Source of the DNA: Effusibacillus dendaii
GTDB taxonomy: Bacteria > Bacillota > Bacilli > Tumebacillales > Effusibacillaceae
Direction: 5' to 3'
Assembly (NCBI RefSeq): GCF_015097055.1
Contig: NZ_AP023366.1
Location: forward strand, 2,817,001 to 2,881,000
Length of the DNA stretch: 64,000 bases
In this document: positions 9,982 to 17,726 of the stretch, one piece after another
Numbering within the stretch: the stretch's first letter is position 1
Layout: each line of letters opens with the position of its first letter
Notes under the pieces: generated by a model
What the model was told of the DNA's origin: nothing
Databases searched by the model: none
Seen by the model: only the letters and a program-made list of their open reading frames with translations
Position numbers and translations under genes: made by a program

Positions 9982-10765
9982 CTACTCTTTGAAAGCATAT
10001 AGTTTACTTATCGAGGAACTGTTCGATTTTTGTAAGTATTTCTTGCATCGATCTTTGCGGTCTTGAAGTTTTAAAGCCCAAGATCTACCAGGATGTATTA
10101 CATCCCAAAGAGACCGTTTCTGGTTGTATCGGCCACTCCCTGGGTCGTAAAGTACACTGCCATCCAAACGAACCAACATGTTCTCTCCACCGGGAACCCC
10201 ATGATCCCCAGCCTTCAATGTCTTAGCAGGTTCGTCCAATAAACTTCCTGTATGCCCTGGGTATACTCTCGCACCGGGTCGATATTCATGGTTAGGAATC
10301 ATATTGCCAATGTCCTCAAATTCAGGATTAGGCAGGACGGTTTCCGGATATGTAATTTGAAGTAAAATGTACTCTAAATATGTACTGAATGATTTCCTAA
10401 GCAAACCCTTTACATTTTCAATCAAGATAACTTCCGGCCGTATTTCTCGAACGGCTCGAATCATTTCCGGAAACATATCCCTTTCATCTAGGTATCCCTG
10501 ATGTTTACCGCCAATGGAAAAAGGTTGACATGGCGGACCGCCTGCTAGTAGATTTATTTTTTTCAGCGTAAGGAGAAAAATCAAACTTACGAATGTCAGT
10601 TTCAAATAGCGACCAGTTGATCACTGCCTGATTGCGTCTAATTGTATTGCAAGCATCTTTGTACCTTCGAGAATATTCGAATTGCCCTATTCGTTTTTTC
10701 TTACGATTCCAAAATTCCCGAAATGGACCCGAGAGGTTGGTGAGGTGTGTCTTAGTGGTCGTCTC
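9982..10765 (-). pseudogene. Broken C5 cytosine DNA methyltransferase
   Basis: On the minus strand an N-terminal piece (REFWNRKKKRIGQFEYSRR, then NWSLFETDIRKFDFSPYAE) changes frame in an A-run near 10560 and continues as LLAGGPPCQPFSIGGKHQGY, which is motif IV with the catalytic PCQ Cys, then IRPEVILIENVKGLL (motif VI, ENV). After about residue 85 the sequence jumps to the C-terminal region (YPGHTGSLLDEPAKTLKAGD, GVPGGENMLVRLDGSV) and then loses frame. Motif I and most of the target-recognition region are missing. It is a solitary remnant; no partner endonuclease is visible. Confidence 0.8.
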
Positions 10766-11107: not shown

Positions 11108-11154
11108 GCGGTTGATTAAACGAGATGTAAAACCAAATAGATTTGGTTACTTCT

Positions 11155-11279
11155 TCTTATCAAGAGAGGCGGAGGGACAGGCCCAATGAAGCCCGGCAAC
11201 CGGCCCTGCAGGCAATCAGCGTGAAGGGTATGATGGTGCCAATTCCTTCAGAACCTGAGGTTCTGGCAGATGAGAAGGG
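11155..11279 (+). promoter_or_regulatory. SAM-I (S-box) riboswitch
   Basis: Conserved S-box blocks are present in order: CTTATCAAGAGAGGCGGAGG, GGGA/CAGGCCC, AAGCCCGGCAACC, then GGTGCCAATTCC and the closing GATGAGAAGG that pairs with the 5' arm. It precedes a terminator hairpin and metNIQ. By family knowledge, SAM binding stabilises the terminator and turns off methionine import when SAM is plentiful. Confidence 0.95.
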
Positions 11280-14029: not shown

Positions 14030-14905
14030 TGATCTTTTTGTTTTTTTGCTTCTTTGAAAACCAAAATCATTAAAAATGACAGAATAATCACCAGCATCCG
14101 CATAAAACACTTAAATCTACCCAAAAATAACGCAAACTGCCCCCGCGTAATCCCATTCCCCTAAAAAACTTGAAATACCATGTTACGGGAATGATGTCAC
14201 TGATTTTTTGAACCGATTCAGGGAACAGCGCAATAGGAGAAATCACCCCGGATAACAAGAAGGCGGGAGAGACTAACAATTGCGCTCGTCCTGAGGCCTT
14301 GAACTGATTGGGAGCATTCCAGCCCACTACAAGCCCCAACAAGGAGCTGATCAAACAAAATAATGCCAACGGAATCATAAACGCTAACGGGTTCCCGACA
14401 AAACGCAAGCCCTCTACTTGTTTCAAGGCTGCTAACGACAAAATCATCGAAATCAGATAGACAAAGGTGTATGGCAACACTCTCAAAAAGAGGCCAGCAG
14501 GACGCATGATTTCCTCTGCCAGTTTTCCTTCTTCCCTTAAACGAGGCACGATGGTGATCGTACCTCCATATAAAATACCTAGTGAGAGAATGCTGATATA
14601 CCCGATATCCAAAAGATTTATATAGTCGTTCGTGGGATTAAACAGCAAGCGTTGTTGTAGGGTAAGGCTTGATACCATACCTCCGATCTGTTCGTTCGAC
14701 ATCCCCATGGCTTTCAACTTTCCCAGTGCAGGAGCGCTGGAATTTTCAGCAGCTAGGCCTTCCACCAGCGCAGACCTTAAATTGCTGGTTGCCGAAGGGA
14801 TTGTATAGTCCACCAAGAAACCGATATTGCTAGGCTTCCCCTGATAACGATTTTGTTCTAATCCATGTGGAAGATATAACACTGCCATATAGGTTTCATC
14901 TCACG
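14030..14905 (-). pseudogene. ABC-2 type permease remnant
   Basis: The minus-strand frame matches the middle and C-terminal part of ABC-2 permeases of the YhgE/Pip or drug-export type: AVLYLPHGLEQNRYQGKPSN, an extracellular segment, then about five hydrophobic helices (GYISILSLGILYGG; RPAGLFLRVLPYTFVYLIS; LLVSPAFLLSGVISPIALFP). The N-terminus with the first helix is missing; at 14905 the sequence joins directly to the HlyD remnant. Near 14100 the frame changes, and the true C-terminus (RMLVIILSFLMILVFKEAKK) is in another frame down to about 14030. Confidence 0.75.
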
Positions 14906-15874
14906 GCTCATTCGCAGACTTGCAAACTGTGGAGCTGCCGTAATAAACCTTACTTTTCCGTCAATATCCCGGTTGGCAGAAATTAAATGTCCGGTAACTT
15001 TGCCGTCTACCTTAAATTTATTCATCTGTTTTTCATCGACATAAAAGTCATAGTACACTTGATTTGTCTCTAATGCGATAACGGGAGAACCAGCTGACAC
15101 ATTTTCCCAAACCTTTGGAATCACATTTACAACAAGTTGATATTCATGGCATTGTTGTTCAAATCGCCCTGCGCCTGTGCGACAGCATCGAGCCCCAGCC
15201 TGACTTTTTCCGTGGCTTGATGTGCCTGGTCTTTATCCTGCTGCTGAGCGCCGGCTGACATTGTTGATAGGTTGCTTCTTGTTGCTGCAACGTATTTTGA
15301 GCTGAGGTCAGTTGCAGTTGGGCAGAATCCAATGTAGTTTTAGGAACCGCTCCACTATCGAACAATGCTTTTGTCCGATTGTAATTTAACTGCGCATTAT
15401 TGAATGTTTCTTTTGCTGCTTCAACCGCTAATCTTTGCTTTTCCATATCCTCTTCTCTAGGCCCCTGTAATACCTTACTCTCGTTACTTTCAGCCGTAGC
15501 AATATTCAGCTCAGCTTGAGCCGCATGCGTTCTGATTTTTTCTTGATCAACCCGGATTGAATCCTCTGTTTGTTTAATTTTAATATCTGTCGACTCGATA
15601 TTGGATTTGAGTTGCGCGATTTGTAAATCAATATCTGTTGGGTCAAGCGTCATTAAAACATCGCCCTTTTTTACCCTTTGTTCTTCCTGGACTTTCACAT
15701 CCGCTACCTTCCCACTTACCTGCTGGAAGGACACATTGACCTGCCCAGCGGTAAGAATACTTCCTTTTTGCTCTAAGGCCAAAGAAACGGCGTCCTTCCC
15801 GCCTATCCACAAACCGAGACTTCCTAAACAAAGAGCTATCGTTAAAATAAGAATGATGACAGTATTTTTTTCAT
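14906..15874 (-). pseudogene. HlyD-family efflux adaptor, frameshifted and truncated
   Basis: A membrane-fusion/adaptor protein: N-terminal anchor (NTVIILILTIALCLGSLGLW), biotinyl-lipoyl-like part (VSGKVADVKVQEEQRVKKGD), a long coiled coil (about residues 85-200) and a second lipoyl half (VSAGSPVIALETNQVYYDFY). There are at least three frame breaks: an A-run just after the ATG at 15874 (seven A where eight are needed), one near 15258 and one near 15128. At about 14906 it is fused by deletion to the middle of the ABC-2 permease. Together they were an ABC efflux system. Confidence 0.8.
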
Positions 15875-16005
15875 GTATTCCACCTGCTCCCATCACGTTT
15901 TCCTATTTTCATCATAAGCTTTATTTTACATAATATCTAATTTATAATTGATCATAAAATGATTACTTACAGTATATAAAAAGAATGGTTAAGGAGACGT
16001 TAGTT

Positions 16006-16881: not shown

Positions 16882-17071
16882 CTTTAAGGTCTAAATCGCT
16901 GTGTAAATCCCCAGGGGTTCAAAATCCAAGATAACACCACAACAGTCTTTTATTACCAGCCTTTTAATGGGATAATTTTAAAAAGGGCAAGATATTACAA
17001 GCGCGAGGATGGGAGTCATCAAGTTCAAAAATGGGCAACAGGATCCATGTTGCATGTATGGAGGAATCATA

Positions 17072-17674
17072 ATGACACTAAAAATTCAAGTATATTCCGA
17101 TTATGTCTGACCGTACTGCTTTATAGCGGAGTTTCCGCTGCAGGAGGCAATTAAGGGAAAAGACGTGGAAGTTGAATGGATGCCATTTGAACTGCGTCCC
17201 TATCCAAATGAAACGCTTCGTCCGGAAGGAGAGTATTTACAAAAGGGATGGGAAAACAATGTGTATCCAACCGCTGAACGTTTTGGCGTGAAGATTGTAT
17301 TGCCGAAGGTATCCCCGCAACCTTATACGCATTTAGCATTTGAGGGCTTTCAATATGCGAAAGAGCATGGCAAGGGGAATGAGTACAACCATCGTATGTT
17401 CACAGCTTTTTTCCAGGATGAACTGGATATTGGAAAAATTGATGTGCTTACCAGGTTGGCTGGTGAAATTGGGCTCGATCAGAAAGAGTTTCGTGATGCG
17501 TTGGAAACACGAAAATATAAAGAAGCGCACCAAAAGGAATTGCAACATGCGTATGAGGGAGTACAGATTACAGCCGTTCCCACATTTATTATCGGGCGGT
17601 ATCAGATTCCGGGACTTCTTCCGAAAGAGCAGTTAGAGAAAGTGATTGATGAAGAAATAGCGCGATGCAGATGA
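17072..17674 (+). CDS. FrnE/DsbA-like thioredoxin-fold oxidoreductase with in-frame TGA (candidate selenoprotein)
   Basis: ATG 17072 follows GGAGG by nine bases and opens MTLKIQVYSDYV, then TGA at 17108-17110, then PYCFIAEFPLQEA and on to TGA 17672-17674, 200 residues in all. The family motif at this place is CPYC; TGA replaces exactly the first, nucleophilic Cys (residue 13), leaving UPYC if read as selenocysteine. The rest is intact: helical insert, cis-Pro loop AVPTFIIG (about 170-177), C-terminal helix, and family length. A hairpin 20 nt beyond TGA fits the bacterial SECIS model (separate entry). The protein is cytoplasmic (no signal peptide). The alternative is a single TGC-to-TGA nonsense mutation, plausible in a window rich in pseudogenes. 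Confidence 0.65.
17108..17139 (+). promoter_or_regulatory. Candidate SECIS element behind an in-frame TGA
   Basis: TGA (17108-17110) is followed at 17125-17139 by AGCGGA-GTT-TCCGCT, a perfect 6-bp stem with a 3-nt loop beginning GT. There are 20 nt between TGA and the loop. Published descriptions of bacterial SECIS elements ask for a stem-loop at roughly this distance with G among the first loop bases. The same bases encode AEFPL, so a chance hairpin is possible. Confidence 0.45.
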
Positions 17675-17675
17675 G

Positions 17676-17695
17676 GGCGGAAATTCCGCCTTTTT
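17676..17695 (+). terminator. Intrinsic terminator
   Basis: GGCGGAA and TTCCGCC (17676-17690) form a compact stem followed by five T, directly after the FrnE-like gene. Confidence 0.8.
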
Positions 17696-17726
17696 AACAT
17701 ATTTGCTTGGAAAGAGGGTTATCTGG

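Follow-up and report, generated by a model that had tools for sequence, protein, structure and literature searches.

The stretch of DNA analysed here, hereafter the window, comprises 64,000 nucleotides of the Effusibacillus dendaii genome (contig NZ_AP023366.1, positions 2,817,001 to 2,881,000), and carries on its forward strand, at 17072-17674, a gene for a FrnE/DsbA-like protein. The gene starts with the ATG at 17072, runs for 200 codons and terminates with the TGA at 17672-17674; the sole other stop in its frame is a TGA at 17108-17110, which leaves 199 sense codons. A likely ribosome binding site, GGAGGAAT (17060-17067), is located 4 nt ahead of the ATG, and GGAG occurs upstream of the start in eight of the ten closest genes with an equivalent TGA, the window gene counted in. 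A promoter scan found no sigma-70-like promoter upstream of the gene, and directly 3' of its stop (17650-17700) GGCGGAAATTCCGCC followed by TTTTT resembles a terminator by eye, though the scan did not call it. An open reading frame also exists mechanically from downstream starts such as the GTG at 17165, from which a 169-residue protein devoid of the active site would be made; however, both the N-terminal strand and the (U/C)PxC motif upstream of this GTG are kept in 18 aligned proteins, and it is the upstream start that the shared GGAG precedes, so that initiation at such a site is exceedingly improbable.

The surroundings of the gene include apparent remnants. On the reverse strand, pieces of an HlyD-like protein and of an ABC-2 transporter lie in separate frames (14088-15896), apparently a broken export operon, and a single frame (9982-10605) combines fragments of a C-5 cytosine methylase and of an Eco29kI-type restriction enzyme, probably what is left of a restriction-modification system. 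A SAM riboswitch (88 bits) at 11154-11276 is placed directly upstream of an ABC transporter operon, which we presume to serve methionine uptake. LysR and EamA neighbours, sought around 102 homologues (with 1.5 kb of flank at some loci), amounted, besides the gene's own locus, to three partial LysR matches and one EamA match.

When the internal TGA is read through, the product begins MTLKIQVYSDYVUPYCF, where the TGA codon replaces the first Cys of a CxxC motif (position 13) and the resolving Cys16 is encoded by the TGC at 17117-17119. The readthrough protein scores 101.7 bits against the Pfam model PF01323 (DSBA; cut-off 25.6), and FrnE is its best match among solved structures (E 7e-17). It thus combines the PF01323 domain with UxxC, the mark of the DsbA-like selenoprotein family, and FrnE as nearest relative places it in the corresponding subfamily. 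Proline 170 (codon 17579-17581, in Val-Pro-Thr) is invariant in the 18 aligned proteins and is taken, from what is known of the family, to be the cis-Pro. Among the NCBIfam models none exceeded its cut-off for this protein, the best being NF041057 (27.9 bits versus 190). The C-terminus reads IARCR-stop, without the CxxxxC that is an optional feature of the FrnE subfamily; the tails of the nine closest TGA orthologues contain CGxDGC in eight cases and CEINGNC in one. The original prediction, made from the letters of the DNA, had described a FrnE/DsbA-like gene of 200 codons with a good ribosome binding site, a single in-frame TGA giving UPYC and a cis-Pro loop, all of which stand; its count of 198 other intact codons falls one short.

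Downstream of the internal TGA, at 17125-17139, lies the hairpin AGCGGA-GTT-TCCGCT, with a perfect 6-bp stem and a 3-nt loop that opens with GT. It had been presented as fitting the bacterial SECIS pattern, with a stem that starts 20 bases after the TGA; stem, loop and coordinates were right, but 20 nt is the distance to the loop and the stem starts after 14 nt. The model of the bacterial SECIS given in the part of a recent review that we draw on comprises a stem of 4-16 bp, a loop of 3-9 nt with G in its first two positions, a distance of 16-37 nt from the UGA and a minimum free energy of at most -7.5 kcal/mol (PMC13188914). The window hairpin agrees with it, as anticipated: once the adjoining T-G pair is counted it has 7 pairs and reaches -8.2 kcal/mol, and its loop GTT lies 20 nt from the UGA; the 6-bp core by itself, at -7.2 kcal/mol, slightly misses the energy bound. 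An equally good hairpin appears in 2% of the synonymous reshuffles of the gene, and the frequency is 0.2-3.2% for nine of the ten closest TGA genes and 8.3% for that of genome G054.

A broader comparison was built from 118 loci, from which four without the motif (L095, L114, L136, L168) and 12 duplicates were removed, leaving 102 sequences (29 TGA, 73 Cys). The Ala-Glu codons that follow the active site are GCGGAG in all 29 TGA genes and in 2 of the 41 Cys genes encoding Ala-Glu there (Fisher p = 1.1e-17, kinship ignored). With G-T counted as a pair, the in-register stem is complete (six pairs) in 26 of the 29 TGA genes and in 1 of the 73 Cys genes; the three remaining TGA genes form five of the six, so that at least five pairs are present in every TGA gene, the window gene included, and each of these genes opens the loop with G. 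A looser free search, accepting any stem that scores at least 6 and has a suitably spaced loop G, retrieved 25/29 TGA and 7/73 Cys genes. The pairing couples bases that could vary silently with bases that are fixed, and is therefore more than a by-product of the protein sequence. Relatedness inflates the uncorrected p-values, and comparisons were therefore also drawn between independent TGA/Cys pairs on well-supported branches: GCGGAG falls on the TGA side in 4.9 of five such pairs on average, never the opposite, and the complete stem in 3.9, where five pairs allow a smallest p of 0.0625 and are unable to reach 0.05. The hairpin accompanies the TGA, and that of the window gene goes beyond chance.

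Is the TGA itself conserved? A protein search of 61 genomes (the host and 60 relatives) returned 12 matches at 54% identity or above, the window gene among them, of which ten carry TGA and two Cys at the same codon. The gene therefore has an in-frame UGA at a redox-active position occupied by Cys in homologues, as expected of a bacterial selenoprotein. In a wider survey of 398 sampled genomes of the class, at a threshold of E <= 1e-60, a homologue was present in 46 (48 matches), and 19 of these genomes, spanning 13 family groups, have a copy with the active-site TGA; of the 27 others, screened for internal stops, 26 show none and one (G230) shows two TAG. A sequencing error at this codon is very unlikely given the identical TGA in 19 genomes. 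Separately, the TGA in the match of genome G058 lies outside an active site.

The conservation of the TGA also bears on the simplest alternative, namely that a Cys-type FrnE gene recently became a pseudogene here through one substitution from TGC to TGA. The two codons do differ by a single change, the fragmented transporter operon lies close by, and two homologues in other genomes are visibly broken: one (L171, in G171, as which the L168 dropped above was later read) carries TGA at the Sec site and, further on, TAG in place of the conserved Trp of EWMPFE, and the other (L169, one of two copies in G343) has a second TGA at that same Trp, both being either decaying copies or errors. Against this, the same TGA recurs across the 13 family groups, the hairpin accompanies TGA among the homologues, and the window gene has no other stop in its 200 codons. 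Furthermore, dN/dS downstream of the TGA is about 0.08-0.17 in six unsaturated pairs of TGA genes (between the window gene and three relatives the silent sites are saturated, pS 0.76-0.88, with dN 0.17-0.21); with dN far below dS, the frame is selected as protein. There is hardly any chance, in our estimation, that the gene is a mere relic of this kind.

The host genome, a single contig of 3.45 Mb, encodes the full Sec set: SelA (609.9 bits), SelB (400.9 bits, about 21 kb before the window gene), SelD (421.6 bits) and a tRNA-Sec (anticodon TCA; 66.4 bits against a gathering score of 47). SelD has its own in-frame TGA, in KAGUGCK, and the TGA positions of both SelD and the window gene are, as we understand it, those of the known Sec sites of their families. 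A formate-dehydrogenase-like gene, matched in pieces that each remain under the family cut-off, carries a TGA in QARIUHS, and two other genes above that cut-off have no internal stop. Because of the TGA codons in SelD and in the formate-dehydrogenase-like gene, the cell very probably uses Sec in other proteins too, as far as sequences can tell.

The machinery and the TGA also go together across genomes. Among the 46 genomes with a homologue, SelA and tRNA-Sec were found in the identical 28; each of the 19 TGA genomes is among them, as are 9 of the 27 that lack the active-site TGA (Fisher p = 1.8e-6, kinship ignored). When the 11 genomes that supplied sequences for the search model are set aside, the figures are 9/9 versus 8/26 (p = 3.4e-4). 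In the close-relative survey SelA exceeded its cut-off in 32 and SelB in 31 of the 61 genomes, the only disagreement being G004, which has the TGA gene, SelA and tRNA-Sec and where no SelB exceeds the cut-off, perhaps owing to an assembly gap. UGA readthrough occurs in bacteria, and the codon might be decoded as another amino acid, or simply read through, without Sec. Nothing specific favours such a decoding; the same gene terminates with TGA, the TGA genomes invariably possess SelA and tRNA-Sec, and the hairpin matches the published SECIS model, all of which makes it very improbable.

The reading as a selenoprotein is supported altogether by the recurrence of a catalytic-site TGA across many species, the hairpin tied to it, the full Sec set and the purifying selection downstream. 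The original prediction had proposed to look for the Sec machinery, for TGA/Cys pairs in related species and for the balance of silent and replacement changes after the TGA, and had held that decay of this copy relative to Cys-bearing relatives would speak against it: the first three were borne out, many relatives share the TGA, and no other decay is seen. We are thus highly confident that the gene codes for a probably cytosolic FrnE-type DsbA-fold oxidoreductase with Sec as the attacking residue, its UGA being read through tRNA-Sec, SelB and the hairpin. In this process tRNA-Sec and SelB would bind the hairpin, from the 15th to the 29th base after the UGA, and insert Sec at 17108-17110.

As regards function, the literature excerpts considered describe FrnE proteins as DsbA-family enzymes that carry CxxC and are predicted to be cytoplasmic, many of them with a C-terminal CxxxxC; that of Deinococcus radiodurans (DR_0659) is a proposed disulfide reductase in which the CxxxxC helps to regenerate the active site, and the absence of the tail, as in the window gene, is described for D. 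maricopensis FrnE (PMC8945050). The window protein resembles DR_0659 in that FrnE is its best solved-structure match and through the CxxxxC tail of eight of nine close TGA orthologues, and differs from it in having Sec where DR_0659 has Cys. In Listeria monocytogenes, Lmo1059 belongs to the DsbA family and has CPFC, the first Cys of which is reported, in the portion of the article cited, to be required for GSSG reduction and diamide tolerance (PMC10715225); both proteins are DsbA-family, a likeness by label only, and Lmo1059 is a Cys enzyme. By analogy with that first Cys, the attacking role would fall to Sec13. The family as a whole leads us to predict disulfide reduction or isomerisation in the cytoplasm, in which Sec13 would attack and Cys16 resolve, and possibly a role as a guard against thiol oxidation.

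The window gene is one of three Sec-type DsbA-fold genes in the host genome. The other two (L047, C1:1677887-1678447, SDFLUPFC; L048, C1:2131267-2131764, FDFNUPFC) also belong to PF01323 and have TGA in place of the first Cys of CxxC; reshuffling yields hairpins as good as their best in 4.8% and 1.5% of trials, respectively, and they are probable selenoproteins of other subgroups. Paralogues with an active-site TGA in G006 and G046 have best hairpins no better than chance (P 0.67 and 0.42), and their SECIS, if any, would therefore be of another shape. In a genome of the same genus, a further DsbA-like gene (L062, G003:C23) carries TGA in FDYNUPYC.

When mapped onto the tree built from the 102 sequences, the Sec and Cys labels need at least 11 changes, five of them forced by well-supported branches. 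The named Bacilli with TGA are Aneurinibacillus terranovensis, Bacillus dakarensis, Salinibacillus xinjiangensis, B. timonensis, Fictibacillus arsenicus and three Bacillus sp.; outside Bacillota, TGA members come from four Planctomycetota MAGs and one Acidobacteria MAG. These five genes constitute one group (support 85/86), which sits in a region of the tree with weak support (77/92) whose remaining members are Bacilli or same-class sequences, a nesting which suggests that the Sec form was transferred between Bacilli and non-Bacillota. In turn, a Cys gene of Fictibacillus phosphorivorans (L128), sister to the TGA gene of F. arsenicus (L132, loop GGC), has kept the stem TAGCGGA/TCCGCTA with loop AGC, the first loop base G being replaced by A; as the sole Cys gene, of 73, with a complete in-register stem, it looks like a recent change from Sec to Cys that left a relic SECIS.

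The kinship of the window gene with the published DsbA-like selenoproteins rests on its PF01323 match and on the label COG2761, which we take to be the FrnE group. That family shares with it the DsbA fold, the UxxC, the stem-loop downstream and the existence of Cys homologues: it was reported from the Sargasso Sea in 2005, with widespread Cys homologues (PMC1088965, the only work found to join COG2761 and selenoprotein), counted in 2006 (PMC1794560), tabulated in 2016 with 45 genes in 41 organisms (PMC5029168) and listed in a 2026 review as 'DsbA-like protein form 1' (PMC13188914), as far as the sections drawn upon go. The gene is thus an added member of an already published family, and of the "new selenoprotein" originally predicted the noun holds, by all that the sequences indicate, and the adjective does not. 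Titles and abstract openings yielded nothing on bacterial FrnE for selenoprotein with FrnE, and nothing on point for YwbO with DsbA. The sections considered of the publications on DsbA-like selenoproteins, supplements aside, make no mention of a spread in Bacilli, of three Sec-type DsbA-fold genes per genome, of repeated Sec/Cys switching or of a relic hairpin; the spread, the switching and the relic may partly be in print already, the 2006 table, in the part seen, counting three selenoproteins in Bacillales (PMC1794560).

An apparent pseudogene becomes in this way a probable selenoenzyme, which ordinary gene calling would shorten, and the fact that no NCBIfam model exceeds its cut-off suggests that many genes of the clade are cut short in annotation. 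The closely related Sec and Cys genes, L128 included, constitute good material on the gain and loss of selenium at one active site. Taken jointly, we consider it an even chance that Sec-FrnE is widespread and mostly unannotated in Bacilli, that Sec and Cys repeatedly interchange, that the Sec form and its hairpin have moved between Bacilli and Planctomycetota/Acidobacteriota, and that the same cells can hold Sec-type DsbA-fold paralogues, so that cytosolic disulfide control may include a selenium-based branch there.
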